64,000 nt of DNA from positions 186,001-250,000 of the forward strand of contig CAJXYU010000006.1 of NCBI GenBank assembly GCA_913063155.1, written 5' to 3'. Under the pieces are notes generated by a model. That model was not told where the DNA came from. It ran no database searches and saw nothing but the letters and a program-made list of their open reading frames with translations. The position numbers and the translations under genes are program-made. Below, one piece after another: positions 14,925 through 35,442 of this stretch. The first letter of the stretch is position 1; each line of letters opens with the position of its first letter. This stretch comes from an uncultured Desulfovibrio sp. (GTDB lineage: Bacteria; Desulfobacterota; Desulfovibrionia; Desulfovibrionales; Desulfovibrionaceae).

Positions 14925-15815
<891 letters not shown>

Positions 15816-15916
15816 TCAAAAAACATGACAACGCACTAAAATACCTGCGATTACAGTCAGACACAGTTGGTGGGAATGACATTTTCGGAAAATGGGAATC
15901 TACAATGTGGAATGTA

Positions 15917-15938: not shown

Positions 15939-15997
15939 TTGGTAGCCAAGACCAGGAACAGATACAGGTCGACTCAACCGCCTTATATTACAAAATA

Positions 15998-16013
15998 TTA
16001 TGTAAAAACATAA
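15998..16013. promoter_or_regulatory. Palindrome TTATGT-N4-ACATAA next to nifV promoter
   Basis: A perfect 6-bp inverted repeat ending 4 bp before the nifV -24 element. The 6-4-6 layout resembles Crp/Fnr-type operators. Its position would let a bound protein block or modulate the sigma-54 holoenzyme or its activator. No regulator can be assigned. Confidence 0.4.
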
Positions 16014-16017
16014 TGGA

Positions 16018-16032
16018 TGGCATTCTTTCTGC
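16018..16032 (+). promoter_or_regulatory. Sigma-54 promoter of nifV
   Basis: TGGCAT-TCTTT-CTGC keeps the invariant GG and GC with correct 10-bp spacing, with small departures from TGGCAC/TTGC. Transcription would start near 16044, giving a leader of about 50 nt. Confidence 0.7.
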
Positions 16033-16094
16033 TTACAACAGAAGCATACCATCCAGGGCTACACAAAACGGCTGCTGAAACAAAGGACGAAACA

Positions 16095-19846: not shown

Positions 19847-20575
19847 ATGACGGAAAACAAAGTCGCGCTCGTCACGGGCGCCAGCAAAGGCATAGGGGCG
19901 GCCATCGCCCGGGAACTGGCTGAAAACGGATTCGACATCTGGCTCAATTACCGCAGCGACACGCCCGGCGCCGAGGCGGTGGCTCGGGACATCGAAAAGG
20001 CGGACAGGACCTGCACCCTGCTGCAATTCGACGTCACCAACGCACAGGCCGCCGAAGAAGCTCTCTCCCCCCTGCTGGAAGAGACCGTGCCCTTCGCCCT
20101 GGTCAACAACGCAGGCTTTGCCCGCGACTCCCTCATGATGATGATGGGGGAAGAGGATTGGGAAGGCGTACTGCGCGTGCACCTGAACGGTTTCTTCAAC
20201 GTCACCAAGCCCGTGGTCACGAAAATGCTCCGCAAACGCCGGGGCAGGATCGTCAACATCGCTTCCACGTCCGGAGAAACGGGAGTCCCGGGCCAGACCA
20301 ACTACTCCGCGGCCAAGGCGGGGCTCATCGGCGCCACCCGGTCCCTGGCCATGGAGGTTGCCAAACGCAACATCCTGGTCAATGCCGTCGCCCCCGGCTT
20401 TATCGAAACGGAAATGCTCGACGAACTGCCCATGGACCGGATCCTGCCACGCATCCCCATGGGCCGCCTGGGTGACCCGAAGGAAGTGGCCGGTGTGGTG
20501 GCGTTCCTGTGCTCTCCACAGGCAGGCTACATCACCGGACAGACCATTTCGGTCAACGGCGGCATCCATACGTAA
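19847..20575 (+). CDS. 3-oxoacyl-ACP reductase (FabG-like), first gene of polyene-type cluster
   Basis: 242-aa short-chain dehydrogenase. NAD(P)-binding GASKGIG (11-17); NNAG motif; catalytic tetrad Asn114, Ser140, Tyr153 and Lys157; and VNGG near the end, as in FabG. It would reduce 3-ketoacyl-ACP made by the ketosynthases that follow (ApeQ-like role). The ribosome site is poor: GGGAGG lies ~18 nt before the ATG, and the ATG closer to it is out of frame. It opens an 18-gene block in one direction. The 208-nt gap before it must contain the main promoter, though no clear -35/-10 was found. Confidence 0.9.
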
Positions 20576-20612: not shown

Positions 20613-21842
20613 ATGCATGAAGTAGCGATTGTTGGAATTGGCATTGTCTCCGTGCTCGGCACGGACCTGGAAACCGTTGCCGGCGGCCTGTACCGGGGCG
20701 CGTCCGGCATCGTGGCTGACGAGGAGCGCGTGGCCCTGGGCTTCGAAAGCCCGCTCACGGGCGTCATCAACGGCTTCGACCCCACGGGCAGGCTGTCCAG
20801 AAAGCAACGCAAAACCATGCCGGACTACTGCATGCAGGCCGCCGTGGCCGCACTGGACGCCCTGGAAATGTCCGGTCTGGAGCCCGATGCCCTGCACAAC
20901 GACGAATCCGGATTGATTTTCGGCTGCGACTCCAGCTGCATCGCAGCTCTTGAACAGGTTGAACTGCTGCACGAACGCGGGGAAACCGCCCTCATCGGCA
21001 GCGGAGCGGTGTTCAAATCCATGACCTCCAACATCACCATGAACCTGAACACCCTGCTGGGCACCATGGGCGCGGCATGGTCCCTGAGTTCCGCCTGTTC
21101 CAGCGGAGGACACGCCGTTGGCCAGGCCTTCACCCTCATCGCCACCGGCCAGCAGGAACGGATCATCTGCGGCGGAGCCCAGGAAATCAACTGGCAGTCC
21201 ATGTGCGGCTTCGACGGACTGGGCGCATTCTCCAAGCAGGCGCGGTCTCCCCAAAAGGCCTGCCGCCCGTTCGACGCAAACAGGGACGGTCTGGTGCCCA
21301 GCGGCGGGGCCGCGGCCATCATGCTGGAGCGCCTGGATTTGGCCGAAGCGCGAGGCGCGAACATCCTCGGCACGGTGGCGGGCTACGGATTCTCCTCGGA
21401 CGGCGAGCACCTTTCCGTGCCCAGCCGCGACGGCATCGCCAGGGCGGGGACAAAGGCCCTCAAACAAGCCGAACTGCGACCTGCGGACATCGACTATGTC
21501 TGCGCCCATGCCACGGCCACCCCGGCCGGAGACATGGCCGAGGCCGCCAACATAAAAGCGCTGTTCCAAGACTGCGCCCCCATGATTTCCTCCACCAAGT
21601 CCATGACCGGCCACGAACTCTGGATGTCCGGAGCCAGCCAGGTCGTCTACTCCACGCTCATGGCCCAAAAGGGATTCATCGCCCCGAACATCAACCTGGA
21701 GAAACTGGACCCCGCGGCCCAAGGCCTGAACGTCGTCTCCGAGACCGTGGAACAGGGGCCGGGAACCGTGCTCTGCAACTCCGCCGGATTCGGCGGCACC
21801 AACTCCTGCCTTGTGCTGAGGTTCCAACATGGCCGCCTTTGA
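20613..21842 (+). CDS. 3-oxoacyl-ACP synthase (KS-1)
   Basis: 409-aa FabF/ApeR-type ketosynthase. Catalytic Cys162 (SSACSSGG), His299 (CAHATATPAGD) and His334 (STKSMTGHE) are all present, so it should be active in chain initiation or elongation. It follows the ketoreductase by 37 nt and overlaps the FAD oxidoreductase by 14 nt. No strong ribosome site is seen before the ATG. Confidence 0.9.
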   Translation: MHEVAIVGIGIVSVLGTDLETVAGGLYRGASGIVADEERVALGFESPLTGVINGFDPTGRLSRKQRKTMPDYCMQAAVAALDALEMSGLEPDALHNDESGLIFGCDSSCIAALEQVELLHERGETALIGSGAVFKSMTSNITMNLNTLLGTMGAAWSLSSACSSGGHAVGQAFTLIATGQQERIICGGAQEINWQSMCGFDGLGAFSKQARSPQKACRPFDANRDGLVPSGGAAAIMLERLDLAEARGANILGTVAGYGFSSDGEHLSVPSRDGIARAGTKALKQAELRPADIDYVCAHATATPAGDMAEAANIKALFQDCAPMISSTKSMTGHELWMSGASQVVYSTLMAQKGFIAPNINLEKLDPAAQGLNVVSETVEQGPGTVLCNSAGFGGTNSCLVLRFQHGRL

Positions 21843-23313
21843 TCACGTCATCGTGGGAGCCGGAATTTCCGGCATGACCGCCGCCATTCTCCTGGCCGAA
21901 CAAGGGCGTAGCGTGGCCGTGGCCGAGTCCTTCCGCAAACCCGCCCCCACGATACGCGGCTTCCGGCGCAAGGGCGTCCACTTCGACACCGGGGTCCACT
22001 ATGTGGGCGGCCTGGGACGGGGGCAGGTACTGGACGCCTATTTCGCCCACCTGGGCCTGGACCGGCTCCTTACGACCGTCCCGTACAAAGCCGACGGATT
22101 CGACGTGATCGCCTTCGAGGAATCGGGCCGGGAATTCCGCATGCCCAACGGATACCAGGCCTGCCGGGATTATCTCTGCGCCGAATTCCCCGAAGAAACC
22201 AAGGCCGTCGACACATATTTCCGCGAAATCAGACGCAACTTCGACGCCTCGCCTTTTCTCAACTTCGAACGGGCGTTCTCCATGGACGGTTTCCTGCACG
22301 ACGACACGATCACCTTGCAAAACTTCCTGGATTCCATCACGGACAACGCAACGCTCAAGACTCTGTTCAGCTATCAGTGCCTGCTCTACGGAGTGCCCCC
22401 GCACAACGCCCTGCTCTCCACCCATTCGCTGGTGGCGGGCTCCTACTGCCGGTCCGCTCACACCATCCGCGGAGGCGGGCACGCACTGGCCAAGGCCTAT
22501 GAAAAACGTCTTGCCGAGCTCGGGGTTGGCCTGTTCTGCAACTGCGAAGCCGGTGACATCGTCCTCTCCCCGGAAAAACGTCTCCGGGGCGTACAGCTCT
22601 CCACCGGCGAGGTGCTGGAAACCGGCTCCTGCATCTGGACGGCCCAGCCGTCGGCCCTGGCCGACGCGGTCCCGGAGGGAGTATTCCGCCCGTCCTACAG
22701 GCTCCGGCTCCGGGAACTCCGGGGCAGCGCCTCGGGCACCATGCTCTTCGGAGTCAGCGACTCCCCCGTCCCGGAACTGGATGGCCGCTGCCGCTATATC
22801 TGGCCGGGCGGCGACTTCGAATCCAAGCTGGAAGGCGATCCCCTGCCGGACGACAACCTGATTTATCTCAGCTCGTGTCTGGACCAGAAATCCGGCAAGA
22901 CCGTGATTACGGTCATCTTCCCGGGCACCATCGCCTCCTTCGCCCGCTGGGAACAGAGCGCCTACGGCGATCGCCCGGAATCCTATAAAAACTTCAAAAG
23001 GCAGTTGGCCGAAAAACTCGTCGCCACCCTGCGCCGCAGATGCCCGGAGCTGAGCGGCGTGGATTTTCTGGAGTGCGCCACTCCCCTGACCGTGCGGGAT
23101 TACTGTTCCACCCCCCAGGGAGCCCTCTACGGCCTGAGACATTCCAACGACCAGTACAATCCGGCTCCGGTCACCAAGCTGGACGGACTGTACCTTGCCG
23201 GACAGGGTATCGTCGCTCCGGGCGTTCTGGGGGCCGTGGTTTCCGCCTATCTGGCCTGCGGCATCATTCTCGGACACGAAAGCTTGCATCAGGAGTTGCG
23301 GCAATGCGCCTGA
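21829..23313 (+). CDS. CrtI/retinol-saturase-like FAD oxidoreductase
   Basis: 494 aa. N-terminal dinucleotide-binding motif VIVGAGISGMTAAILLAEQG, then a long substrate domain, and a C-terminal FAD motif LYLAGQGIVAPGVLGAVVSAY typical of phytoene-desaturase-like enzymes. The family oxidises, reduces or isomerises conjugated polyene chains. Its place between two ketosynthase genes, overlapping both (14 and 10 nt), ties it to the pathway. Here it may adjust double bonds of an ACP-bound or released polyene; that is inference. This enzyme is not part of the well-studied E. coli-type aryl polyene set. Confidence 0.8.
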   Translation: MAAFDHVIVGAGISGMTAAILLAEQGRSVAVAESFRKPAPTIRGFRRKGVHFDTGVHYVGGLGRGQVLDAYFAHLGLDRLLTTVPYKADGFDVIAFEESGREFRMPNGYQACRDYLCAEFPEETKAVDTYFREIRRNFDASPFLNFERAFSMDGFLHDDTITLQNFLDSITDNATLKTLFSYQCLLYGVPPHNALLSTHSLVAGSYCRSAHTIRGGGHALAKAYEKRLAELGVGLFCNCEAGDIVLSPEKRLRGVQLSTGEVLETGSCIWTAQPSALADAVPEGVFRPSYRLRLRELRGSASGTMLFGVSDSPVPELDGRCRYIWPGGDFESKLEGDPLPDDNLIYLSSCLDQKSGKTVITVIFPGTIASFARWEQSAYGDRPESYKNFKRQLAEKLVATLRRRCPELSGVDFLECATPLTVRDYCSTPQGALYGLRHSNDQYNPAPVTKLDGLYLAGQGIVAPGVLGAVVSAYLACGIILGHESLHQELRQCA

Positions 23314-24530
23314 ACAAAGTCGTCATCACCGGCCTCGGCGCCGTCTCCCCCTTCGGCACGGGCATGGACGCCCTCATGCACGGGCTTATTTCCGGGCGCA
23401 GCGGTGTCCGGGCCATGGAAGAGCTTTCCGAAATCGCGGGGCTCCGCCCCCGCATCGGCGGCAAGACGCCGGAATGCGACGCGGCCTCCATCCCCCGCAA
23501 GTTCCGGCGCTCCATGTCTGCCATGTCCATCTTCGCGGTGCTGGCCGCCAACGAGGCCGTGGCCCAGGCGGGCCTGGAACCGAAGGAGATCCGTAGCGCC
23601 GGGACAGGGCTGTCCGTCAGTTCGACCATCGGCAGCACCAACGCCCTACAGGCCTTCTTTTCCAATTTTCTGGACGGTATGAGCATCGAGGGCATCCGGT
23701 CCACCGAATTCTTCAAGATCATGAACCACAGTTGCGCGGCCAACCTGACCCAATACTTCGGCATCACGGGCCGGGTCATGGCCCCTTCGGCGGCCTGCTC
23801 CACAGGAGCCCAGGCCATCGGCCTGGCGGCCGAGGCCATCGCCATGGGAAGGCAGGAAATCATGATCTGCGGCGGTGCGGACGAACTGCACCCGCTCACG
23901 GTGGGCACCTTCGACATCATCGAGGCCGCTTCCACAGGACACAACGACGATCCTCAATCCGCACCGCGACCCTTCGACGCCGGACGCGACGGCATCGTCT
24001 GTTCCGATGGCGCGGGCATGGTGGTGTTGGAATCCCTGGAATCCGCACAAAGACGCGGAGCCGTCATCCTGGCCGAACTGGCCGGATTCGCCTCCACCTC
24101 CGATCCCTCCAACATGGCCAGCCCCAGCAGCGATGCCATCAAGGCCTGCATGAACGCAGCCCTGAAAGACGCCAAAGCCGGCCCGGAAGAGGTGGACTAC
24201 GTCAACGCCCACGCCACGGGCACGGTGCTCGGCGACGCGGCGGAAAGCCGGGCCATCGGTGAACTGTTCGGCGACGCCACGCCGGTGAGCAGCCTCAAGG
24301 GGCATCTGGGGCACACCATGGCCGCCAGCGGCGCTCTGGAGTTGGCCGCCACCGTGCGCATGATGCGGGACGAAATTCTTGTTCCCACCCGGAATCTCGA
24401 AGTCATCTCCCCGGATTGCAAGGGGATAGAGCATATATTGAAGTTACAGGACAAAGCGATTACTTTCGCGCTGAAAAACAGTTTTGCGCTGGGCGGAATC
24501 AACACGTCCATTGCGCTGAGGAGAATTTGA
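23304..24530 (+). CDS. 3-oxoacyl-ACP synthase (KS-2)
   Basis: 408-aa ketosynthase with Cys165 (SAACSTGAQ), His303 (NAHATGT) and His337 (KGHLGHT) intact. Motifs resemble FabF. Start MRLNKVVITG has AGGAG 8 nt upstream; a longer open frame upstream overlaps the FAD gene and is spurious. It shares a TGATG junction with the ACP gene, indicating translational coupling. Confidence 0.9.
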   Translation: MRLNKVVITGLGAVSPFGTGMDALMHGLISGRSGVRAMEELSEIAGLRPRIGGKTPECDAASIPRKFRRSMSAMSIFAVLAANEAVAQAGLEPKEIRSAGTGLSVSSTIGSTNALQAFFSNFLDGMSIEGIRSTEFFKIMNHSCAANLTQYFGITGRVMAPSAACSTGAQAIGLAAEAIAMGRQEIMICGGADELHPLTVGTFDIIEAASTGHNDDPQSAPRPFDAGRDGIVCSDGAGMVVLESLESAQRRGAVILAELAGFASTSDPSNMASPSSDAIKACMNAALKDAKAGPEEVDYVNAHATGTVLGDAAESRAIGELFGDATPVSSLKGHLGHTMAASGALELAATVRMMRDEILVPTRNLEVISPDCKGIEHILKLQDKAITFALKNSFALGGINTSIALRRI

Positions 24531-24787
24531 TGACCGACGTCGAAATACTGGAACTGACCAACAAGGTCCTGGCCGAGGAATTCGAACTGAGCCCGAACCA
24601 GATGAAACCCGAGGCATCCTTCCGGGAAGACCTGGAACTGGACAGCCTGGACGCCGTGGACATGGTGGTGGTGCTGGAGCAGACCTTCAAGATCAAAATC
24701 AAAAAGGACGAGGCCTTCAAGAGTATCCGCACCCTGGGCGACCTGCACGCCTTCATCCTGGCCAAGAAAGAGGAAATGGGCGACTAG
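24530..24787 (+). CDS. Acyl carrier protein (ACP-1)
   Basis: 85 aa, MTDVEILELTNKVLAEEF.... The phosphopantetheine Ser lies in LDSLDAVDMV. It is acidic and helix-rich as expected. GAGGAG precedes the start, which overlaps the KS-2 stop. It would carry the growing chain. Confidence 0.92.
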   Translation: MTDVEILELTNKVLAEEFELSPNQMKPEASFREDLELDSLDAVDMVVVLEQTFKIKIKKDEAFKSIRTLGDLHAFILAKKEEMGD

Positions 24788-24809: not shown

Positions 24810-25598
24810 ATGAGCACCCTTCGACTGATCGTGACCAACATCGTCATGTATGCGGGAACAGTGTCCCTGACCCTGTTCTGCGTGCTCATTTCCGTGCCGT
24901 TCTACTGGTGTCTGCGTCTGACCGGCCGGCACAACAGGACCACGGCCGTGCGGCGCATGATCTGGCTCTACGGCCGATCCTGGGTTTCCATCGCCGACCT
25001 GCTCATGGAGGTGGACAAGCCCAAGACCGGCAGCGTGGACGCCCCCTGCGTCATGGTGCTCAACCACGCTTCGTTTTTCGACTCCTACTGCATCGGCTTC
25101 CAGCCCCAATGGAACTTCAGCTTCGCGGTCCGCAACTGGCCGTTCAAGATCCCGCTCTACGGCCCGTTCATGCGTACGGCAAAATATGTGGCCACCGAGG
25201 ACGCGGACATGGAGACGGTCCTGAAGCAGGCCGTGAAAGTCATCGAGGACGGCGGCATCATGGTCTTCTACCCCGAGGGCACGCGCAGCCGCGACGGCAG
25301 ACTCGGGAGGTTCTATTCCGGGGCTTTCCTGACCGCCATGAAAGCCAATGTGCCGGTAGTGCCGGTCTGCCTTTCCGGCACCGGAAAAATGCTCAAACGG
25401 GGCGGCTGGCTCGTGCGACCCCACCCTCTGCGCATGCGCATCCTGCCGCCGGTCCACCCGGACGCGTACAGGGACATGCCCAACGGGCACGTGGCCATGC
25501 GCAAGGAAGTGAAACGACAAATGGCCGAGGCCTTGAACCATATGGAAACGATTTCCAAAGCATCCATTCGCGAACAAAGGAGCTGTAATGCGACGTAA
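24810..25598 (+). CDS. PlsC-like lysophospholipid acyltransferase (AT-1)
   Basis: 262 aa with an N-terminal membrane anchor (about 8-35). Acyltransferase motifs: NHASFFD (HX4D) and FYPEGTRSRDG. Enzymes of this family in aryl-polyene clusters are thought to transfer the polyene to a lipid anchor. It begins 22 nt after ACP-1 and overlaps the lipoprotein gene by 11 nt. Confidence 0.87.
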   Translation: MSTLRLIVTNIVMYAGTVSLTLFCVLISVPFYWCLRLTGRHNRTTAVRRMIWLYGRSWVSIADLLMEVDKPKTGSVDAPCVMVLNHASFFDSYCIGFQPQWNFSFAVRNWPFKIPLYGPFMRTAKYVATEDADMETVLKQAVKVIEDGGIMVFYPEGTRSRDGRLGRFYSGAFLTAMKANVPVVPVCLSGTGKMLKRGGWLVRPHPLRMRILPPVHPDAYRDMPNGHVAMRKEVKRQMAEALNHMETISKASIREQRSCNAT

Positions 25599-26001
25599 CC
25601 CCCTGATCGTCTTTGTGACTCTCTGTTGTCTGGCCCTGGTCGGCCTCTCCGGCTGCATGGCCAAACCCGTCCTGAACATTCACGACGCCCCCATTCCCGA
25701 ATCCACCGGCCATCATCTTTCCATGGGCCAGGTCGAAAAGGCCATCGTCGAAGCCGGCGCCGAACGCGGCTGGGTCATGCAGACCAAGAAGCCCGGCCTC
25801 ATCATCGGCAACATCACCGTGCGCGGCAAACACCACGCCACCATCAAGATCACCTACGACAAGGACAACTACAACATCGACTACGTGGACAGCCGCAACC
25901 TGGACTACAAGAACGGCAAAATCCACCGCAGCTACAACAACTGGGTCAACTACCTCGATCAGGACATCCGCTCCAGGCTCGCTGTCGCCCAGTACGACTA
26001 G
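25588..26001 (+). CDS. Small lipoprotein of the polyene-type cluster
   Basis: 137 aa with signal peptide and lipobox LSGC (Cys23). The mature part has YDKDNYNIDYVDS and other Tyr/Asp-rich strands, suggesting a small beta-rich periplasmic domain. Similar lipoproteins occur in envelope-targeted polyketide/aryl-polyene loci; no activity is known. AGGAG lies 6 nt before the ATG. Confidence 0.8.
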   Translation: MRRNPLIVFVTLCCLALVGLSGCMAKPVLNIHDAPIPESTGHHLSMGQVEKAIVEAGAERGWVMQTKKPGLIIGNITVRGKHHATIKITYDKDNYNIDYVDSRNLDYKNGKIHRSYNNWVNYLDQDIRSRLAVAQYD

Positions 26002-26058: not shown

Positions 26059-27549
26059 ATGACCGAAAATCCGCACCGCTGCTGGGGCTCCCCCTTCACC
26101 GACGCAGACATAACCGAGGCGCATGCCACAGGCCGGCTCCTGACCATGGAGCTGGAACTCAGCCGCATCTGCAACCTCAGGTGCATCTACTGCTATGCCG
26201 AATCCGGCGAAAAGCTGGCCCATGAGATCTCCTTCGAGGAGATCACCGACGTGCTCGACCAAGGCAAGGCTCTGGGAGTACGCAAGGTCATCGTGCTCGG
26301 CGGCGGCGAACCCATGGCCTACCCGCGTATCCTGGACGTGTTGCGGGCCATCCACGACCGAGGCCTGGCCATCGAACTGTTCACCAACGGCACCCTGCTC
26401 ACAGGGGAGATCGTCAGTGAATTCCTCCGGCTGGGCGTGCATCCGGTCATCAAATGCAACAGCCTCAAGCCCGGGGTGCAGGACCGCCTGGCGGGCCGCA
26501 AGGGGACCTTTGAAGCCATCCGCAAGGGCTTCGACCTGCTCCGGGAAACGGGCTACCCCACGGCCGATCTTTCCCTGGGCGCACAAACCATCATCTGCGA
26601 ACAGAACTACGACGAGCTGCCCAGCATGTGGCGCTGGCTGCGCAGCCGGCAAATCATCCCCTATTTCGAATGCATCACCGACCAGGGACGGGCCAAGGGC
26701 CAGATAAACCTGGCCGTCGCCCCCGAAAAACTGCGCAGCCTGTTCAGCGAACTTTCCCGCATCGATGCCGAGGAATTCGGCATCCACTGGGAGCCCAAGC
26801 CTCCCGTGGCCGCCTTCACCTGCCGCCGCCATCTTTTTTCTTGCACCGTGACCGCCGTGGGCGACGTCATTCCCTGCCCGGGCGTGGACATTCCCGCAGG
26901 CAACATCCGCGACAAATCGCTGAGGGAGATCATCGCCGACAGCGAGGTCTTCCAAAACCTGCGCAACATCCGCCAAACCATCAAGGGAGAATGCCGCACC
27001 TGCGACCTGAGCCGGGAATGCTACGGCTGCCGGGGCATGGCCTATAACGCCACCGGTGACTACCTGGCGTCGGACCCGCTCTGCTGGCGCAACTCCGGCG
27101 CGGAAAACGACCAAGAACTCCCCATAGCCGCCGCCAAGATCATTCCCCACCGGGAGTCCATGCTGCTCATCAACGAACTGGTGGAGGCGGGAAACGGCGC
27201 CGGCAAAGCAACCGCCCGCCTGGACGCCGACGCCATCGTCGCGGCCCCATCAAGCGCCGTCGACCCGCTGACCTTCGTGGAGCTGGCCGCCCAGACCTAT
27301 GCGGCGGTCAAGGGCTGGGAGATCATCCGGGACGGCGGGAAATTCCCCATCGGCTATCTGGTGGGCGTGCAGAAATTCGAGGCGCACGCCGGAGCCATGG
27401 TCGGGGACGACCTGACCATCAGCGTAGAGACTGCGGGCGAGTTTGAGGGTTTTGCCGTGGTCCAGGGCTCGGTGCATCGTGGCGACACTTGCCTCGCCGA
27501 CCTGAAGATCAAGCTCTGGGTACCCCCCGATACGGAGGCCGTCCCATGA
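26059..27549 (+). CDS. Radical-SAM/SPASM protein fused to an ApeP-like hotdog dehydratase
   Basis: 496-aa two-part protein. Residues 25-345: radical SAM with CNLRCIYC (Cys38, Cys42, Cys45), GGGEP motif at about 81-85, and SPASM-type auxiliary-cluster cysteines (Cys255, 262, 273, 312, 315, 321, 324, 342). Residues 352-490: hotdog fold beginning AAAKIIPHRESMLLINEL, with His364 in the PHR motif, like the ApeP class of 3-hydroxyacyl-ACP dehydratases. Standalone ApeP pairs with ApeI in aryl-polyene synthesis, and an ApeI-like gene is at 31049. What the radical-SAM half does is unknown; making or modifying the starter or the bound chain is possible. No good ribosome site is seen before the ATG. It overlaps the LolA-like gene by 4 nt. 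Confidence 0.85.
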   Translation: MTENPHRCWGSPFTDADITEAHATGRLLTMELELSRICNLRCIYCYAESGEKLAHEISFEEITDVLDQGKALGVRKVIVLGGGEPMAYPRILDVLRAIHDRGLAIELFTNGTLLTGEIVSEFLRLGVHPVIKCNSLKPGVQDRLAGRKGTFEAIRKGFDLLRETGYPTADLSLGAQTIICEQNYDELPSMWRWLRSRQIIPYFECITDQGRAKGQINLAVAPEKLRSLFSELSRIDAEEFGIHWEPKPPVAAFTCRRHLFSCTVTAVGDVIPCPGVDIPAGNIRDKSLREIIADSEVFQNLRNIRQTIKGECRTCDLSRECYGCRGMAYNATGDYLASDPLCWRNSGAENDQELPIAAAKIIPHRESMLLINELVEAGNGAGKATARLDADAIVAAPSSAVDPLTFVELAAQTYAAVKGWEIIRDGGKFPIGYLVGVQKFEAHAGAMVGDDLTISVETAGEFEGFAVVQGSVHRGDTCLADLKIKLWVPPDTEAVP

Positions 27550-28172
27550 TCAAACGACTGTTCCCGGCCCTTCTTCTCGTCCTGCTCGCGCCCGCTGCGG
27601 CACGGCCCGCTCCCGGAACCGAACTGCTGAACGCGCTTCGGCAGGAGGCCTCCCGCACCCGGACCATCGCCTGCGACTTTGTCCAGGAAACCCACATGGC
27701 CCTGTTCGACGAGGTAGTCTCTTCTGAAGGAAAATTCTTTTTCAAGCGCCCGGACATGGTCCGCTGGGAATACACCAATCCCTTCAGTTCCGGGTTCGTC
27801 ATGCAAGGGGAGAAAGGTCGTGAATGGGACGAAGCCACGGGCCAAGTCAGGAATTTCACGGCCTCCGGCTCTCCGCAGATGGCCGTGGTGACGAAACAGA
27901 TCGTGGCCTGGACCACCTTTGACATCCAATGGCTGGAAACCCAGTACGATATCCAGGCCGAAGCGCACCCGGCGCCCCACCTGCGCCTGACTCCCAGAGG
28001 CAAGACGGTGCGCTCCTTCATCCAGCACCTGGACTTCTACTTTTCCAAGGACCGGTCCGTGCTCAAGCGCATCGAACTGCACAGCCCGGACGGCGACTTC
28101 ACCCGCATCCGTTTCAGCAACCACCGCATCAACGGCGACCTGACGGACACAACCTTCACCGTGGCGCAATGA
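27546..28172 (+). CDS. LolA-like periplasmic carrier protein
   Basis: 208 aa with an N-terminal signal peptide (to about residue 22). The LolA pattern is visible: CDFVQETHM, then GKFFFKRPDMVRWEYTNPF. In aryl-polyene loci, LolA-type proteins are thought to move the product across the periplasm. GGAG precedes the ATG, which overlaps the preceding stop (ATGA). Confidence 0.85.
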   Translation: MIKRLFPALLLVLLAPAAARPAPGTELLNALRQEASRTRTIACDFVQETHMALFDEVVSSEGKFFFKRPDMVRWEYTNPFSSGFVMQGEKGREWDEATGQVRNFTASGSPQMAVVTKQIVAWTTFDIQWLETQYDIQAEAHPAPHLRLTPRGKTVRSFIQHLDFYFSKDRSVLKRIELHSPDGDFTRIRFSNHRINGDLTDTTFTVAQ

Positions 28173-30550
28173 GCTTCAAAGGGGTCATCTACAATTCGTA
28201 CCGCGCACTCGAAGACCGGCGCGCACTCCTGATTGCGGGAACCGTGGTCCTCGCGGCCCTGTGTCTGCTGGCTCTTTCCCGAGCCACCATGACCGCGGAC
28301 ATCAAAACCATGCTCCCCGGCGGGCAGGCCGGAAGCATGGCCGAGGACTTCGACCTCCTGAACCGCTCCACCCTGTCCAACAGGATCATGATCACCGTGC
28401 GCGGCACAGAGGGCGTTTCCAGGGACGAGCTTTCCGCTTCGGCCGAGACTCTGGCCAAGGCCCTTCCGCCCAAACTTTTCACGGTACAATCCGCCTCGGC
28501 CATCAACCCGCAGCAAGTGCTGGCCTTTCTCGCAACCAACGCCCCCAACCTCATGGGCGAAAAAGAATTGCAAGCCGTCAAGAACAAGCTGTCACCGGCG
28601 CAGGTACGCAGGCAACTGGGCGAAGACTACTCGCTGCTGACCTCGCCCCAGGGCCTGGCCGCCAAGCAGATGGTGCGCCTCGATCCCCTGGGCCTCCATT
28701 CCCTGCTCACCCCAAGGCTGGCCCGGTACCGCGCCTTTTCCAACGTGACCCTGCACCAGGGCCGCGTATTCAGCAAAGACGGCGACGCCCTGCTGCTTAC
28801 GGCCACAACTCCCGTCGCCATGACCGACGCGGACGGGGCGCAACGGCTCGTGGACGCCTTTGCCACAGCTTGTACCGCCCTTCCCGCAGGGGTCACGGCC
28901 GACATGCTCAGCGGCCACGCCCATACCCTGGCCAACGCCTCCGTCATCAAGCGGGACCTGGCCGTCATCAGCGCCGTGTCCCTGGCCGCCCTGGGCCTGC
29001 TCTTTTTCTTCTGTTTCCGCTCGGTGCGCGCCCTGGGAGTGCTGGCGGCCCCGCTCCTGAGCCTGTGCGCTGCCTTGGGCATGACCGCTCTGTGCTTTGA
29101 ACCGGTCTCGGCCATTGTGATCGGGTTCGGTGCGGTCCTCCTGGGTATCTCCATCGATTTTTCCATGCACGCCTACTATGCGGTTTCCAGCCGTCCGGAC
29201 AATCCCGGCGAGGCCCTGGCCTCCCTGAGCACCCCGCTCCTGTTCGGCCTGGTCACGTCCTGCGCCGCCTTCGGAGCCCTGTTCCTGTCAGGCATACCCG
29301 GCATCCAGCAACTGGCGTTCTTCTCCATCGCCGGGCTGGTCACGGCCGCCCTGTACGCCCTGTTCGTGCTGCCCCATATCGGAGGCGCTGCGCCGACCAA
29401 GGCCGCACACGCTCCCTGCGGCGGGCCGAAACGCCATCCCCGCGGGGCGCTGTTCACGGCCATCGGGCTGTTGTTGACTGGCGCGATCCTGTCCTGGAAC
29501 GCCAGCCTGGATACGGACCTTCGCTCCATGGGGTACATGTCCAAGGACATCCGCCGGGCGGAACAGGCCTTCAACAAGTCATGGGGCGACGCCCGCAGCA
29601 AGGCCGTGGTCTTCACGAACGCGCCGGACATGGGCTCGGCCATGGCACGCAACGAGCAAGTATGGAACATGGTCCGGGCACAACTGCCGCAGGTGCAGGG
29701 CGCAAGCCTGGCCCCGCTGCTTCCCGGCCTTGAGTCCCAGGCAGACAATCGCGCCCGCTGGACCGGATTCTGGACCAGAGACAAGCGGCGAGACGTGCAG
29801 GACCTGCTCACCACCGAGGGCAGGCAATTCCGTTTTTCCCCACGTGCATTCCAGCCGTTTCTGGACGGCCTGAAGACAACGCCGCAGCCGGTGACCCCCG
29901 CCACCCTGAAACAGGGCGGACTGGGTATGCTGCTGGAGATCATGGCCCCGTCCCGGCAAAAGGGCGACACCCAATTGCTGACCTTCCTGCCCGACACCGC
30001 CGAGGTGCGCGCTCTGTTCACTCCGGAACGGGAACGAAAACTGGGCGCACGACTCGTGTCCCGCATCCGGTTCAAGGAAAACCTGGAATCGACCATGGAA
30101 AGGGACATCGTCCGGTTCATCACCGCCTCGGGCCTGAGCGTGCTGCTGCTGGCGTTCCTGCTCTTCCGCAACGTGCGCCGCTCTCTGCTCTCCCTGCTGC
30201 CGCCCGGCTTCGGAGTGGTGACGGTCTTTGCGACTCTCGCGGCCACGCACACGCCCATGAATCTCTTTCACATCGTGGCCCTGCCCCTGGTCATCGGCCT
30301 GGGTGCGGATTACGGCATCTTCATGGTCTGCCGGGAGCGGGACCGCCTGCCCTTGTCCACGGTTCCGGCCATCCGCCTTTCCGGACTGACCACGCTGGCG
30401 GCTTTCGGCGTGCTGGCCCTGGCCAGGCACCCATCCCTGCACTCCCTGGGCATGACCGTGCTCCTGGGCGTGGGAGCCGCGCTTCTGGCCGCTCTGTACC
30501 TTCTGCCCCACCTGCTGGAGCAACCTTCCGGGAGGGCCGAATGCGTCTAG
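28169..30550 (+). CDS. MMPL/RND-family exporter
   Basis: 793-aa inner-membrane protein with two similar halves. Each half has one N-terminal helix, a ~200-residue periplasmic loop, and five helices. Repeated motifs are GISIDFSMHAYYAV in the first half and GLGADYGIFMVCRE in the second, the transmembrane Asp region of MMPL transporters. It would export the lipid-linked or free product. The start overlaps the LolA-like gene by 4 nt. Confidence 0.9.
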   Translation: MSFKGVIYNSYRALEDRRALLIAGTVVLAALCLLALSRATMTADIKTMLPGGQAGSMAEDFDLLNRSTLSNRIMITVRGTEGVSRDELSASAETLAKALPPKLFTVQSASAINPQQVLAFLATNAPNLMGEKELQAVKNKLSPAQVRRQLGEDYSLLTSPQGLAAKQMVRLDPLGLHSLLTPRLARYRAFSNVTLHQGRVFSKDGDALLLTATTPVAMTDADGAQRLVDAFATACTALPAGVTADMLSGHAHTLANASVIKRDLAVISAVSLAALGLLFFFCFRSVRALGVLAAPLLSLCAALGMTALCFEPVSAIVIGFGAVLLGISIDFSMHAYYAVSSRPDNPGEALASLSTPLLFGLVTSCAAFGALFLSGIPGIQQLAFFSIAGLVTAALYALFVLPHIGGAAPTKAAHAPCGGPKRHPRGALFTAIGLLLTGAILSWNASLDTDLRSMGYMSKDIRRAEQAFNKSWGDARSKAVVFTNAPDMGSAMARNEQVWNMVRAQLPQVQGASLAPLLPGLESQADNRARWTGFWTRDKRRDVQDLLTTEGRQFRFSPRAFQPFLDGLKTTPQPVTPATLKQGGLGMLLEIMAPSRQKGDTQLLTFLPDTAEVRALFTPERERKLGARLVSRIRFKENLESTMERDIVRFITASGLSVLLLAFLLFRNVRRSLLSLLPPGFGVVTVFATLAATHTPMNLFHIVALPLVIGLGADYGIFMVCRERDRLPLSTVPAIRLSGLTTLAAFGVLALARHPSLHSLGMTVLLGVGAALLAALYLLPHLLEQPSGRAECV

Positions 30551-31059
30551 CCGTTCTGACCATGACCCTCTGCCTGTTGGCCGGATGCGCGACAACGCGC
30601 CCCTGCCCGAAAAACACGGCCCCGACTTCCGCGCAAACATGGCGGGCCAGTGGAAAAATCTTCACCCTGCGCCACGGCGGCGTGCTCATGACAGGAGGCA
30701 GGACCCTGCAAATGACCGGGCTCATGAAGCTGGACACCGGCCGGGGCCGCGCGGATCTGGCCATCTTCAACGGTTTCGGCCTCAAGCTGGCCGTGCTCCG
30801 AGTGACGCCGGAGACCACCGAAGTACGCCAACTCTCGCCCATGGCCGAAATGATCCCGCACTTCGCCGAACAGGCGGGCATCGTTGTTCGAACCCTGTTT
30901 CTCCAAGGACGTCCCGCGGACCAATGCGCCGAAGTCCGGAATGAGAACTCGGTGCGGGCGGCGGGCGTATCCTTCCCGGCCACCATCACCTTCAAAGAGC
31001 TGCGATACGGCTACACGGTCATCCTGCGGCTCAAGGACGTACAGATCCATGATCAGTGA
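30541..31059 (+). CDS. DUF3261/LolB-like lipoprotein
   Basis: 172 aa with lipobox LAGC (Cys16). The mature domain has alternating beta strands (ASGKIFTLRHGGVLMTGGRT..., FNGFGLKLAVLRV...) as in LolB-fold lipoproteins. With the LolA-like and MMPL proteins it would form the export route. It overlaps both neighbours by about 10 nt. Confidence 0.72.
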   Translation: MRLAVLTMTLCLLAGCATTRPCPKNTAPTSAQTWRASGKIFTLRHGGVLMTGGRTLQMTGLMKLDTGRGRADLAIFNGFGLKLAVLRVTPETTEVRQLSPMAEMIPHFAEQAGIVVRTLFLQGRPADQCAEVRNENSVRAAGVSFPATITFKELRYGYTVILRLKDVQIHDQ

Positions 31060-31438
31060 CACCAGACTGAACCGGGAAATCCTGGCCAGCGCGGGCGTCT
31101 TCACAGCCCACGGCGATTCCTTTTCCATGGAATTCACCTTCGGGCCCGGCTTTGTCGGCTTCGAAGGACACTTTCCAAACGATCCCATCCTTCCGGCCAT
31201 GGTCCAGCTCATGACCGGGGCCGCGGCCTGCGGGCAGGCGGCGGGAAAACCACTGGCGGCCCGCACCGTGAGCCGTGCCAAATTCCTCAAGCCCGTCCTG
31301 CCGGGCCAGCACCTGGAGGTGCATGGTTCCCTGAGCCGCACGGATGGCGGCTACACCGCAGCCGTCAAGATCATCAGCGGACAGGACTTGGCCTCCTCTT
31401 TCCAGATGCAGCTGGACGACTGCACGGAGGCGGTATGA
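31049..31438 (+). CDS. ApeI-like 3-hydroxyacyl-ACP dehydratase
   Basis: 129-aa hotdog protein with the FabZ/FabA-type motif FEGHFPNDPILPAMVQL (catalytic His41). In E. coli-type aryl-polyene synthesis, ApeI works with ApeP; here the ApeP-like partner is fused to the radical-SAM protein. It overlaps DUF3261 upstream and the thioesterase downstream (4 nt). Confidence 0.88.
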   Translation: MISDTRLNREILASAGVFTAHGDSFSMEFTFGPGFVGFEGHFPNDPILPAMVQLMTGAAACGQAAGKPLAARTVSRAKFLKPVLPGQHLEVHGSLSRTDGGYTAAVKIISGQDLASSFQMQLDDCTEAV

Positions 31439-31899
31439 GCAGAAAACCGTATTTCCCCCCCGTTCCGGGAGCGCCGGGACCGCTGCGCGTAAGCATGGAG
31501 CGCGAGGTGCGCTTCGAGGAAGTGGACCCCATGGACATCGTCTGGCACGGCCGCTATCCAAGCTACTTCGAGGACGGACGGCAGGTCCTGGGCAAACGCT
31601 ACGGCATCAGCTATCAGCACTTCCGGGACAACAGGGTGGCCGCCCCCATCAAGCAGATGCACATCGACTACGTGCGTCCCCTGCGCTTCGGCGACGCCAT
31701 GAGCATCGAGACCATCCTGCACTGGACCGAGGCGGCCCGACTCAACTACGAGTTCATCATCCGCAACGGCCAGGAGCAGGTGACCACCACCGGCTACACC
31801 GTGCAGCTCTTCATCGCTTTTGACGAGGAACTCATGATGTACCCGCCCGACTTCTACGCCCGGTTCCTGGAAAACTGGAAACAGGGCATTCTGGAGTAG
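31435..31899 (+). CDS. Thioesterase (4HBT/YbgC-like)
   Basis: 154-aa hotdog thioesterase. The region RFEEVDPMDIVWHGRYPSYF matches the 4-hydroxybenzoyl-CoA thioesterase-type active site (Asp in VDPMDIVWH). It would release acyl chains from ACP or edit the pathway (ApeK-like role). Confidence 0.85.
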   Translation: MSRKPYFPPVPGAPGPLRVSMEREVRFEEVDPMDIVWHGRYPSYFEDGRQVLGKRYGISYQHFRDNRVAAPIKQMHIDYVRPLRFGDAMSIETILHWTEAARLNYEFIIRNGQEQVTTTGYTVQLFIAFDEELMMYPPDFYARFLENWKQGILE

Positions 31900-31904
31900 C
31901 CACC

Positions 31905-33095
31905 GTGCCCGAAGTCCTTGTCGTCATACCCGTCTTCAACCACGGAGCCACGCTGCGCAGCATGGTCACGGGCGCGCTGGCGCACCATCCGGACGTGCTC
32001 GTGGTGGACGACGGCAGCACGGACAAAGGCGTGGAAACCATTGCCGATCTGCCGGTGCGCGTCATCCGCCACGAAGCCAACCAGGGCAAGGGACAGGCCA
32101 TACTCACCGCCGCCGAAGAGGCCCGCAGGCTGAACAAGACGCATATCGTCACCATCGACGCGGACGGCCAGCACTACCCCGAGGACATTCCGGCTTTTCT
32201 GATGGCCGTCAAAAAAAATCCCGGCAGCGTCATCGTGGGCAGCCGCCGCTTTACCGGCGAGCACGTGCCGGGCGCATCCAAGTTCGGCCGGTCCTTTTCC
32301 AATTTCTGGCTCCGGGTCCAAACCGGCCGGGAGCTCTCGGACGTGCAATGCGGCTACCGGGCCTATCCCGTGTCCCTGTTCCAGGCCGTGAAGCTGTGCG
32401 AAAGGCGTTACGCCATGGAGGTGGAGGTGCTGGTCAAGGCATCCTGGGCCGGATTCCCGCTCATGGACCTGCCCATCGACGTACACTACCCGCCGCCGCA
32501 CAAGCGGGTCTCGCATTTCAGGGCGCTCCGGGACAACGTCCGGATATCCTTGCTCAACACCCGGCTCACGGCCCGCTGCTTCCTGCCTGTACCGCATCGG
32601 CAATACGCCGAGGACGAGGAAGGCAAGATCAGCCCGGTGCATCCCATCCGCTCCCTGAAGCTGCTGCTCATGCAGGACGAGTCTCCTTTGCTGCTGGCCC
32701 TGGCCGGGGCTCTGGGGATGCTGCTGGGCACTCTGCCCATCATCGGACTGCACTGCATCGCCATCATCTTCGTGGCCGGATATTTCAGGCTGAGCCGCAT
32801 CACCGGACTGGCGGTCAGCCAGCTGTGCATGCCCCCCTTTGTGCCCGCCCTGTGCATCGAGGCCGGATACTATTTGCGCAACGGCGAATTCCTCACGGAC
32901 ATCTCCCTGCGCACCCTGGGCTACGAAGCCCTGGACAGGATCTGGGAATGGGTGCTCGGTTCCCTGGTGCTGGGGCCCTTGTTCGCCCTGGTCATAGGCC
33001 TGGTCATCTACGCCATGGCCCTGGTGGTGCGAACCCGGCTGCAACAACAGGAGCGGAAAAACATGGCGGCCACGGGAGAAGCCCGTGACCGATAG
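31905..33095 (+). CDS. GT2 glycosyltransferase with C-terminal DUF2062 membrane domain
   Basis: 396 aa. Residues 1-220: GT-A fold with IPVFNHGATL, VVDDGSTD and the metal-binding TIDADGQH. Residues 255-385: three or four membrane helices of DUF2062 type (LGMLLGTLPIIGLHC...). It probably glycosylates the product or its lipid anchor at the inner membrane. The start is GTG at 31905 with GGAG 8 nt upstream. It overlaps the next gene by 11 nt. Confidence 0.85.
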   Translation: MPEVLVVIPVFNHGATLRSMVTGALAHHPDVLVVDDGSTDKGVETIADLPVRVIRHEANQGKGQAILTAAEEARRLNKTHIVTIDADGQHYPEDIPAFLMAVKKNPGSVIVGSRRFTGEHVPGASKFGRSFSNFWLRVQTGRELSDVQCGYRAYPVSLFQAVKLCERRYAMEVEVLVKASWAGFPLMDLPIDVHYPPPHKRVSHFRALRDNVRISLLNTRLTARCFLPVPHRQYAEDEEGKISPVHPIRSLKLLLMQDESPLLLALAGALGMLLGTLPIIGLHCIAIIFVAGYFRLSRITGLAVSQLCMPPFVPALCIEAGYYLRNGEFLTDISLRTLGYEALDRIWEWVLGSLVLGPLFALVIGLVIYAMALVVRTRLQQQERKNMAATGEARDR

Positions 33096-34044
33096 GAAAT
33101 GGACCAGCAAGAGTCTGGCCTCCTCGTTCTTTCACCGGATCTTCTACGCAACCATCCGGCTGGGCGGACGCTGGGCGGCCTACTGCCTGCTCGTGTTCGT
33201 GGCGGGCTTCTATGCCCTGCACCCGGGGGTGCGGGCGCGCACCGCGGAATACCGACGCAAGGTTCTCGGCGAATCCGGCTTTTTCCGGAACCTGTGGTTC
33301 TGTTACCGGCACTATTTCGAATTCGGCAAGATGCTGGTGGACCGGGCCGTGCTGGGAATCCTCGGGCGGTTCGACATGCACACCACCCGCGAGGACAAGG
33401 AGTTGCTCCGCGACCTGCTGGCCGAAGAGCGGAAAGGGCTGATCATCATTACCGGCCATGCGGGCTGCTGGCAGCTGGGCACGGCTGGCCTGGAGGACAT
33501 CGACGCGCCCAAAGCCGTGGTGCTCTACCGCGACCGGGCGGACGTCGACCGCCAATATTACGAACACGGAAAGGGCAGGAAAGCCCCTTTCAGGATCATC
33601 GATCCCCTCGGCCCGCTGGGCGGGACCGTGGAAATGATGGAGGCGCTCAAACAGGGTTCCATCATCTGCTTCATGGGCGACAGAAATTTCGGAGATGGGA
33701 ACAGCGGAGTGAAAGTCGATTTTCTCGGGGGAGAAATCGAGGTTCCCATCGGCGCATACAGACTGGCCTCCCTCATGGGCGCCCCCGTGGTGGTGGCCTT
33801 TTCCCGGCGCACCGGCCCGGGACGGGGGAAAATACGGATATCCAGGGCCCTTCAGGTCCCGGACGGACTGGGACGCGAGGCACAGGCCTACAAGGTCTAC
33901 GCCCAGATGTTCGCCGACGACCTGGAGGAATACGCCCGGACAAATCCGCTGCAATTCTACAACTTCTACGACATGTGGGAAAAGAGGGATGAGAGAGATG
34001 AACATCAAGGAAAAACTCAAGGAAGTCCTGATCAGCGACCTTAA
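33085..34044 (+). CDS. LpxL/HtrB-like lipid acyltransferase (AT-2)
   Basis: 319 aa with an N-terminal membrane segment (about 28-48). The acyltransferase motif is GHAGCWQLG, i.e. HX4Q rather than the HX4D/E common in LpxL proteins; ICFMGDRNFGDGN follows. In aryl-polyene loci such enzymes are thought to attach acyl groups to the lipid part. GTG start with GGGAG upstream. It overlaps ACP-2. Confidence 0.82.
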   Translation: MTDRKWTSKSLASSFFHRIFYATIRLGGRWAAYCLLVFVAGFYALHPGVRARTAEYRRKVLGESGFFRNLWFCYRHYFEFGKMLVDRAVLGILGRFDMHTTREDKELLRDLLAEERKGLIIITGHAGCWQLGTAGLEDIDAPKAVVLYRDRADVDRQYYEHGKGRKAPFRIIDPLGPLGGTVEMMEALKQGSIICFMGDRNFGDGNSGVKVDFLGGEIEVPIGAYRLASLMGAPVVVAFSRRTGPGRGKIRISRALQVPDGLGREAQAYKVYAQMFADDLEEYARTNPLQFYNFYDMWEKRDERDEHQGKTQGSPDQRP

Positions 34045-34249
34045 CCTGGTGGATGTGACCCCGGAGGAAATCCGGGACGACGAGCCGTTATTCGGCGACG
34101 ACGGACTGGGACTGGACTCCCTGGACGCCGTGGAGATCATCGTCATCGTGCAGAAGCACTTCGGCGTGGAGATCAGGAATATGGAGGAAGGCAAGGACGC
34201 TCTGCGGTCCCTGGTCAGCCTGGCGAAATTCATCGAGGAGCGTCAGTAG
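33998..34249 (+). CDS. Acyl carrier protein (ACP-2)
   Basis: 83 aa, MNIKEKLKEVLISDLNL.... The phosphopantetheine Ser is in LGLDSLDAVEIIVI. AGAGGG lies 9 nt before this ATG; an ATG three codons earlier is too close to it. It is a second carrier protein distinct from ACP-1, as in aryl-polyene loci with two ACPs. Confidence 0.9.
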   Translation: MNIKEKLKEVLISDLNLVDVTPEEIRDDEPLFGDDGLGLDSLDAVEIIVIVQKHFGVEIRNMEEGKDALRSLVSLAKFIEERQ

Positions 34250-34251: not shown

Positions 34252-35442
34252 ATGCGGCCGGTTTCGCCTGTCGCCGTCCTGGGCGCGGAGTGTATCTGCG
34301 CGGCCGGTCCGACCCTGGACACCTGCATGGAATCCATGCTCCAGGGCGGGCACGGACCCGCCTCGCCCACCCTGTTCGCCTGCGAGCAGCCCGAGCCGTT
34401 CCCGGTCTTCGAGGCCGCTGACTTCACGCCCGGCCCAGGAGAGGACAAGTATTCGCGCACGGTTCAGCTCCTGCTGCACACCACGCGCATGGCCTTTGCA
34501 AAAGCCGGGATCACCCCGGATGCACTCGAAGGGCTGCGGGTGGGAGTCTGCATCGGCACCTCGGTGGGAGCTTCGCTGAATTTTCTGGATTACTACAAGA
34601 GGCAGAAGCAGAACGGCGACCTGGAACTGGCCGCCATCCACACCTACGTACGCAGCAACCCGGCCACGGCCCTGGCCCGCAGATACGGCTTTACCGGTCC
34701 GGCCCAGGCCGTGGTCAACGCCTGCTCTTCGGGAACCGACGCCATCGGCATGGGCGCGGCCTGGGTCCGCCAGAATCTGTGCGACCTGGTGGTGGCCGGA
34801 GGAGCCGACGAACTGAGCGAAATCTCCTACAATGGGTTTGCCCGGCTCATGATCACCAGCCCCGAGCAGTGCCGCCCCTTCGACAAGAACCGCAAGGGAC
34901 TCAACTTGGGCGAAGGCGCGGGCGTCCTTCTGCTGGCTTCGGAACGGACCGTGGCCAAGCTTCGAGGTTCCGTACCGGCTCAGGTGCTGGGTTACGGCAC
35001 ATGCAGCGACGCCCATCATCTCACCGCGCCGCATCCCGAGGCTTTCGGCCTGGAACGGGCGGTGAACGACGCCCTGGCCCAGAGCGGGCTGGGCTGTGGA
35101 GACATCGGCTTCATCAACGTGCACGGCACGGGCACGGCCAACAACGATCCTGTGGAAGGATTCCTGCTCAAGAAACTTTTCAAGGACACTCCGTTCGTGG
35201 CCACCAAAGGCTACACCGGCCATACCCTCGGCGCAGCCGGGGCCATGGAGGCCGTGCTGACCGTGGCCGGTCTGGAGCAAGGTATCCTTCCGGCCTGCCA
35301 TGGATTCAGCGAGACGGACCCGAACATCGGACTCGCTCCCGTGGCCCGGGCAACGAAAACCTCGGCCCGGTTCGCCCTGTCCCAGTCCCTGGCCTTCGGC
35401 GGCAACAACTCGGCCATCGTCCTCAAGCGGGGTGACGCATGA
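34252..35442 (+). CDS. 3-oxoacyl-ACP synthase (KS-3), likely elongating subunit
   Basis: 396 aa with Cys158 (VNACSSGTD), His291 (NVHGTGT) and His324 (KGYTGHTLG) all present. It is directly followed (4-nt overlap) by a degenerate ketosynthase, the arrangement of a catalytic ketosynthase and its chain-length partner (ApeO:ApeC-like). It begins 2 nt after ACP-2. Confidence 0.9.
   Translation: MRPVSPVAVLGAECICAAGPTLDTCMESMLQGGHGPASPTLFACEQPEPFPVFEAADFTPGPGEDKYSRTVQLLLHTTRMAFAKAGITPDALEGLRVGVCIGTSVGASLNFLDYYKRQKQNGDLELAAIHTYVRSNPATALARRYGFTGPAQAVVNACSSGTDAIGMGAAWVRQNLCDLVVAGGADELSEISYNGFARLMITSPEQCRPFDKNRKGLNLGEGAGVLLLASERTVAKLRGSVPAQVLGYGTCSDAHHLTAPHPEAFGLERAVNDALAQSGLGCGDIGFINVHGTGTANNDPVEGFLLKKLFKDTPFVATKGYTGHTLGAAGAMEAVLTVAGLEQGILPACHGFSETDPNIGLAPVARATKTSARFALSQSLAFGGNNSAIVLKRGDA

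Follow-up and report, generated by a model that had tools for sequence, protein, structure and literature searches.

Introduction

The described systems that stand closest to the locus analysed here are the aryl polyene clusters APE_Ec and APE_Xd, the flexirubin cluster of Chitinophaga pinensis and the 'ladderane' cluster of Kuenenia. The two aryl polyene clusters share with our locus an ApeI/ApeP pair that forms one site, a ketosynthase with chain-length factor, a ketoreductase and acyl carrier proteins, as well as LolA-like and RND-type export, a thioesterase and acyltransferases, and the available parts of their descriptions mention no radical SAM gene (PMC8253772, PMC8041823). ApeI and ApeP have been described as a heterodimer 'with a single active site' (PMC8041823). 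The starter proposed for APE_Ec of E. coli is a UbiC product, 4-hydroxybenzoate, which is also an early intermediate of the ubiquinone pathway (PMC8253772), so that the ammonia-lyase to which an initial annotation of our DNA referred is not the starter source in every described aryl polyene system.

In flexirubin biosynthesis, the tyrosine ammonia-lyase FlxA makes 4-coumarate and the 4-coumarate:CoA ligase FlxY activates it (PMC3992019). The C. pinensis cluster has ketosynthases, ketoreductases, dehydratases, an acyl ligase, LolA, an exporter, an acyltransferase and a glycosyltransferase in common with ours and obtains its starter via the tyrosine ammonia-lyase, with no radical SAM gene named in the available portion of that report (PMC3992019). 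Our locus differs in having a radical SAM-ApeP fusion gene and in lacking an in-cluster lyase.

In Kuenenia, what is by position a member of the same radical SAM family lies in the region Kuste3335-3352 beside a phenylacetyl-CoA-ligase-like gene, a phytoene-desaturase-like gene, many ketosynthase genes and a glycosyltransferase gene; Kuste3344 is annotated as 'phenylacetyl-CoA ligase' and Kuste3343 as 'SAM radical enzyme' (PMC4790861). According to the accessible text of Rattray et al. 2009, which reported it, a radical SAM cascade was proposed for Kuenenia, reviewer text published there pairs the radical SAM gene with DP1855 of Desulfotalea, and no ladderanes were found in the syntenic Desulfotalea. 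After expression in E. coli, no new fatty acids were seen, and detection of the proteins failed for both kuste3342 and kuste3343 (PMC4790861). The available text of publications naming Kuste3343 demonstrates no function for it, and a 2026 preprint proposes cobalamin-dependent radical SAM enzymes as the ladderane ring formers (PMC13142503).

Results

An aryl polyene-type cluster with a radical SAM-ApeP fusion gene

The window, by which we mean the whole 64-kb stretch of uncultured Desulfovibrio sp. DNA that was analysed, contains a cluster of 19 genes on a single strand at about 19.8-37.4 kb:

19847..20575, + strand: KR, FabG-type ketoreductase (FlxB model 298 of 340 bits, under cut-off)
20613..21842, + strand: KS1 ketosynthase (profile hits)
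21829..23313, + strand: FADox, FAD oxidoreductase, carotenoid-desaturase-like (profile hits)
23304..24530, + strand: KS2 ketosynthase (profile hits)
24530..24787, + strand: acyl carrier protein 1 (profile hits)
24810..25598, + strand: PlsC-type acyltransferase (profile hits)
25588..26001, + strand: LP137, 137-aa lipoprotein-like, at the place of the FlxY-type ligase (no family hit; position)
26059..27549, + strand: fusion of a radical SAM/SPASM half (aa 1-343) and an ApeP-type hotdog half (aa 352-489) (profile hits, structure matches, motifs)
27546..28172, + strand: LolA-like carrier protein (LolA2_flexi 109.6 of 125 bits)
28169..30550, + strand: MMPL/RND-type exporter (profile hits)
30541..31059, + strand: LP172, 172-aa lipoprotein-like, conserved in the cluster (no family hit; position)
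31049..31438, + strand: ApeI-type dehydratase partner, with the GHF His and without the Glu (profile and motif)
31435..31899, + strand: 4HBT thioesterase (profile hits)
31905..33095, + strand: glycosyltransferase 2 + DUF2062 (profile hits)
33085..34044, + strand: LpxL-type acyltransferase (profile hits)
33989..34249, + strand: acyl carrier protein 2 (profile hit)
34252..35442, + strand: KS3 ketosynthase (profile hits)
35439..36257, + strand: ketosynthase-like, chain-length-factor candidate (profile hits)
36254..37423, + strand: AMP-forming ligase, nearest to 4-coumarate--CoA ligase TIGR02372 (297.3 of 334.7 bits, under cut-off)

With ketosynthases and a ketosynthase-like factor, a ketoreductase, a split dehydratase, acyl carrier proteins, LolA/MMPL export and a ligase, the cluster has the gene content of the aryl polyene/flexirubin-like type, in agreement with the polyene-type assignment made initially, and would be predicted to make a polyene. 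The ketoreductase and LolA (and the ligase of relatives) approach NCBIfam flexirubin models, all under cut-off. No FlxY/PaaK-type ligase gene was detected by profile search in the 64-kb stretch, no gene for a B12 radical SAM enzyme either, and there was no lyase match in the window that could correspond to the in-cluster FlxA of flexirubin clusters. The region just left of the cluster, 12387-17192, encodes a homocitrate-synthase-like protein and several nitrogenase-type proteins, namely component 1, two PII and NifH.

The ORF at 26059-27549 is genuine: its radical SAM core and the SPASM region, which has seven Cys, continue in frame into the ApeP-type half. Radical SAM/SPASM proteins have the signature CX3CX2C plus CX9-15GX4C ... 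CX2CX5CX2-3C ... C; the corresponding residues, Cys 38/42/45, 255-G268-273 and 312/315/321/324/342, are kept in all 90 radical SAM rows (90/90), and this pattern together with Pfam places the protein among them. Against NCBIfam, none of the 25 models shown for the radical SAM half (hereafter rSAM) exceeded its cut-off, the nearest being AhbD, an oxidative decarboxylase, at 147 of 500 bits. Structure prediction, proposed as a check in the initial annotation, yielded a model in which the radical SAM fold would begin near residue 28 and the rSAM half most resembles SkfB, SuiB and sactipeptide maturase entries, with 6QSR_B as best structural match of the hotdog half. Among known SPASM radical SAM enzymes, SkfB, SuiB and PqqE stand nearest, and DesII appeared among the structural matches as well.

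In such dehydratases the catalytic residues are a Glu on ApeP and a His on ApeI. When rows matching both profiles (FabZ-like) were excluded, except L028, the Glu motif (E[LIVM]xxQ-type) was present in 65 of 65 ApeP domains and the GHF His motif in none of them (0/65); conversely, GHF was found in 47/47 ApeI-type proteins and a Glu 14 residues on in 0/47. The hotdog half, with the Glu only and a partner ApeI with the His, is thus an ApeP dehydratase subunit, and the domain pair of the initial annotation is confirmed by Pfam, the invariant Cys pattern and these motifs. Since the complementary Glu and GHF motifs fit the single-site heterodimer, the fused protein would be expected to dock with the ApeI encoded at 31049-31438.

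The radical SAM gene recurs in polyene-type loci and is repeatedly fused to ApeP

The rSAM family is spread across many phyla and many anaerobic bacteria, and its APE-type loci show the order PlsC - FlxY-type ligase - rSAM - ApeP - LolA - MMPL. Of the 69 loci that extend far enough to either side of rSAM, a FlxY-type ligase gene stands directly upstream of rSAM in 50 (52/72 in a wider count) and ApeP is fused or adjacent in 39; rSAM lies between ligase and ApeP in 30, beside the ligase but not ApeP in 20 and next to neither in 10. A same-strand ketosynthase gene is found near rSAM in 40 of 47 loci that extend at least 5 kb upstream and at least 4.5 kb downstream. Homologues with the two domains as separate genes, and with the rSAM half away from polyene loci, had been named as evidence that would speak against the initial reading: separate genes do exist, but the rSAM half sits in polyene-type loci in those 40 of 47 cases.

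In a species-level genome set, rSAM and ApeP are fused in 42 of 80 loci; the 80 include near-duplicates (L039 and L050 from one genome, L023 and L025 from one MAG) and the locus L024, which is probably from a misbinned contig. On the rSAM tree (90 rows, 88 of them different, as L021/L103 and L026/L106 are duplicate loci from two sets), the fused or separate state changes 6 times, and at least 5 of these changes are forced by well-supported branches. The nearest relative, the sister species G023 (87% identical), has two genes with a 4-base stop/start overlap, ATGA, whereas the frames are continuous in the window. A sequencing error that merged two genes was rejected, and with 42/80 loci fused the fusion is not a unique feature. 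The only fusion partners among 120 listed of 1283 homologues were ApeP and LolA, with no ligase fusion among these 120. The fusion is therefore a minor feature, probably the late joining of neighbouring, overlapping genes, and it loses the weight of a special clue that it had been given, because rSAM stands beside the ligase (50/69) more often than fused or adjacent to ApeP (39/69).

Several individual loci deserve mention. P0071 (L096:10001-) is a triple fusion of radical SAM, ApeP and LolA of 727 aa. At L122:9384-10517 (G340), an ApeP-fused, shortened rSAM half lacks CX3CX2C and keeps the SPASM region, and the cluster is otherwise intact. The L024 'Opitutales' contig is almost identical to L023, a Desulfonatronovibrio contig from similar sediments, and is probably misbinned.

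Across 395 Desulfobacterota genomes, rSAM occurs in 22, ApeP in 57, both in 14 and neither in 330 (p = 5e-8). This co-occurrence is linkage; starter and tailoring roles are separated by gene order and not by co-occurrence. The ligase (E <= 1e-70) was found in 10 of the 65 genomes having rSAM or ApeP, beside rSAM in 8, with rSAM absent in the other 2. In one of these two (G433) an ammonia-lyase gene lies between ligase and ApeP, and in the other (G151) there is nothing in that place.

A putative aromatic ammonia-lyase gene occupies the same operon slot

A PF00221 lyase is present in 30 of 64 genomes of the order to which G433 belongs, and 30 lyase loci were read, one per genome, with a second place in G584 and a fragment in G607 outside the count. 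In 22 of the 30 (L174-L195), the lyase is the next labelled gene between ligase and ApeP, followed by LolA - MMPL; both flanks are present in 20 of these loci, 2 are cut at a contig end, and the gap between ligase and lyase reaches about 0.9 kb in L182. The remaining 8/30 (L167-L173, L196) have other flanks. Longer stretches of 21 of the 22 lyase clusters, several of which end at contig ends, gave 0 matches to the rSAM profile, and the lyase profile gave 0 matches in the 80 rSAM loci, in 13 regions of relatives and in the window stretch. The backbone of the rSAM clusters recurs in these 21 lyase clusters: 20 have ApeP, LolA and MMPL, 20 have the ligase, 18 the FAD oxidoreductase, 16 ApeI and 15 KR, and 13 contain a B12-type radical SAM gene.

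The exchange is also visible in trees of the neighbouring genes. Among the 77 rows of the ligase tree, two ligases from rSAM loci of one MAG, L023 and L025, nest within 19 lyase-associated ones (100/96, 96/89), and at least 2 changes of partner are forced, which suggests that the same ligase lineage can work beside either enzyme. In the exporter tree, made with a quick method that gave long-branch warnings, lyase clusters fall among rSAM clusters (80 rows: 48 rSAM, 18 lyase, 14 neither). On this comparative evidence, the gene swap between lyase and rSAM in one operon slot is the new element of our analysis, and it supports the earlier guess that the rSAM half may stand in for an ammonia-lyase in making the starter. 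The consulted portions of the literature on aryl polyenes, flexirubin and ladderanes do not describe such a swap, and a literature search returned nothing joining flexirubin with radical SAM or aryl polyene with Desulfuromonas.

Several features bear on what the in-cluster lyase acts on. The motif NQDVVSMGT is present in 22/22 in-cluster lyases, and 6 of 8 stand-alone lyases have NQED, a mark of histidine lyases. The best PDB hit of the G433 lyase is the tyrosine aminomutase 2ohy (337.9 bits), with NQDVVSMGL at the same place; two entries entitled histidine ammonia-lyase, PDB 3kdy and 3kdz, look in the alignment like near-identical forms of this aminomutase, and other histidine-lyase PDB entries score 317 bits or less. 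Relatives of the in-cluster lyase are often named histidine ammonia-lyase, and in NCBIfam the histidine ammonia-lyase model comes first (506 of 524), followed by HutH (495 of 539) and FlxA (479 of 700), with no model reaching its cut-off. Specificity is not readable from the sequence of such lyases, and FlxA itself has an HAL-like motif (PMC3992019, available part). We therefore treat the in-cluster lyase as a putative aromatic ammonia-lyase. The lyase of G433 (L114) and P0123, which carries the name of Geoalkalibacter halelectricus, are 100% identical. No lyase-ApeP fusion was seen among 120 listed of 7711 relatives.

For the FlxY-type ligase the nearest model is FlxY, which it matches with 448 and 460 of 520 bits. 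In Bacteroidota, FlxY exceeded the cut-off in 5 of 66 genomes, with a lyase labelled within 20 kb in 1 of the 5 (L164).

Other known starter sources are mostly absent

PF00221 is absent from 44 and UbiC (PF04345) from 48 of 49 rSAM genomes of unstated completeness, many of them MAGs. In the genome to which the window belongs (G000, completeness 100), UbiC PF04345 was not found, and the single PF00221 gene lies on another contig, where its neighbours score 973 bits as hutU (cut-off 375) and 443 bits as hutI (cut-off 298). It scores 457 with HutH versus 283 with an aminomutase model and 277 with FlxA and has the motif GQEDHVSMG; with these neighbours, motif and score it was rejected as a starter source.

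Among ApeP-positive genomes, PF00221 occurs in 1/14 with and 13/43 without rSAM, a weak contrast, and lyases are commonly absent from ApeP genomes anyway (30 of the 43 rSAM-negative ones). Two relatives, G010 and G033, have the cluster without rSAM and no PF00221 gene, and clusters with neither rSAM nor lyase include L111, L112, L132 and L133. In 10 of 40 rSAM-negative ApeP neighbourhoods (40 of the 43 genomes were covered; G443, G159 and G339 were left out), PlsC directly precedes ApeP. In L130 and L134-L140, from one family of Desulfobacterota, two other genes stand in the slot between PlsC and ApeP; scans of L136 and L138 identified them as housekeeping genes, for NAD(P)H-hydrate epimerase/dehydratase and for TsaE, and they were rejected as a rival starter enzyme. 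Because related clusters with neither gene occur, a third starter source would have to exist or rSAM be optional, and these clusters are the main objection to reading rSAM as a replacement for the lyase.

By position, the family includes the anammox protein Kuste3343

In the anammox loci L035 and L065, rSAM is unfused and has a PaaK-type ligase gene on one side (split into fragments in the draft of L035) and a B12-type radical SAM gene on the other, and a canonical FabZ takes the place of ApeI:P. Their gene order equals the locus-number order Kuste3352-3335, and the methyltransferase of L035 is that of PDB 8HD2 (755 bits), which we take to be AmxMT1 of PMC9821293. By position, the rSAM family would thus correspond to Kuste3343 of the Kuenenia 'ladderane' cluster and is not new (2009). 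The earlier statement that no radical SAM step is known in such systems is superseded accordingly, since a family member in a FASII/polyene-type cluster was already present in Kuste3343. The window does not have the ladderane-type order (ligase - radical SAM - B12 radical SAM, with canonical FabZ), and TIGR04072 was not found in its genome at 1e-60.

Discussion

Because the lyase fills the same slot, a FlxY-like ligase is encoded next door in most lineages and other known starter sources are mostly absent, we rank starter supply first, as the most likely function of rSAM, and chain tailoring second. That the rSAM/SPASM half is the starter-supply enzyme of an anaerobic aryl polyene (flexirubin-like) pathway, where it would replace the aromatic ammonia-lyase, has in our judgement about an even chance of being correct. 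Its product would be an aromatic acid; the simplest case would be 4-coumarate or cinnamate derived from Tyr or Phe, and other aryl acids are possible. An acyl ligase would activate this acid, namely the adjacent FlxY-type ligase in most lineages and the product of 36254-37423 in the window. Ketosynthases, KR and the ApeI:P dehydratase, in which the ApeP half and ApeI may form one composite site, would extend the activated starter to a polyene for export by LolA/MMPL. Reaction, substrate and pigment are predictions here that build on domains, gene cluster, slot swap and complementary ApeI/ApeP residues read directly from the sequences. Against starter supply count the lack of a FlxY-type ligase beside rSAM in the window and its lineage, the missing ligase fusion among the homologues listed and the 10/69 loci in which rSAM has neither neighbour.

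The principal competitor holds that the rSAM half tailors the ACP-bound polyene, by oxidation, desaturation or the joining of carbons, while the ApeI:P dehydratase keeps it close to a chain that has just been dehydrated, and we consider it doubtful, yet well worth keeping in view. The fusion to ApeP in 42/80 loci with at least 5 forced fusion or split events, an ApeP half that makes sense only with ApeI (65/65 Glu, 47/47 GHF) and AhbD as nearest NCBIfam model would all suit such tailoring, as would the absence of rSAM from the otherwise intact clusters L111 and L112. Tailoring gives no reason for a lyase in that slot; in 20/69 loci rSAM adjoins the ligase and not ApeP, and the fusion is easily accounted for by the 4-base overlap in G023. 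If rSAM instead acted on the aryl acid or thioester after the ligase, changing rather than making the starter, the order ligase - rSAM - ApeP would be expected, and a separate starter source would explain the clusters that lack both rSAM and lyase; such a modifier should sometimes accompany the lyase, however, and none of the 21 lyase clusters and none of the rSAM loci that were read contained both, which makes this head-group modification unlikely.

Peptide modification, the activity of most solved SPASM relatives, is suggested by the best structural matches (SkfB, SuiB and sactipeptide maturase entries). The predicted fold from near residue 28 would leave no N-terminal peptide-binding domain, however, and the 57 bp to the preceding gene and the 4-bp overlap with the following one leave no room for a precursor gene at those flanks, so that a RiPP maturase ranks as the least probable of the functions considered. 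Cyclisation of the polyene chain, as proposed for the Kuenenia radical SAM enzymes, seems hardly more credible. It can point to the anammox members in Kuste3352-3335 order with their 8HD2 neighbour and to the cascade proposed by Rattray et al. 2009, but the family extends over many phyla, that report, as far as accessible, found no ladderanes in the syntenic Desulfotalea, and the family has no B12 domain, in contrast to the proposed cobalamin-dependent ring formers (PMC13142503).

The preferred reading, starter supply, can be widened further. Tentatively, and with clearly less confidence than for starter supply itself, we propose that the whole rSAM/SPASM family could serve anaerobes as an aromatic ammonia-lyase of non-homologous origin, or as an aryl-acid synthase, that needs no MIO cofactor to make starters of the 4-coumarate or cinnamate type; together with its ligase it would then also make the primer acid in the anammox 'ladderane' cluster. 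We know of no radical SAM aromatic ammonia-lyase and, regarding the anammox ligase-rSAM pair, of no aryl product in anammox bacteria. If the proposal is true, Kuste3343 would be a starter enzyme and not a ring former, so that in the open question of ladderane synthesis one candidate radical SAM enzyme may act on the primer and not in ring closure. A radical SAM family of many anaerobic phyla would also gain a function that experiments can address, and enzymes would be predicted to reach aromatic acids by a new route. Separately from this family, B12-binding radical SAM genes follow ketosynthase genes in many clusters (L077:17860-20501, L101:13983-15368, L198-L216), and L077:19128-20501 matches TIGR04072 rSAM_ladder_B12 with 624 bits (cut-off 360).
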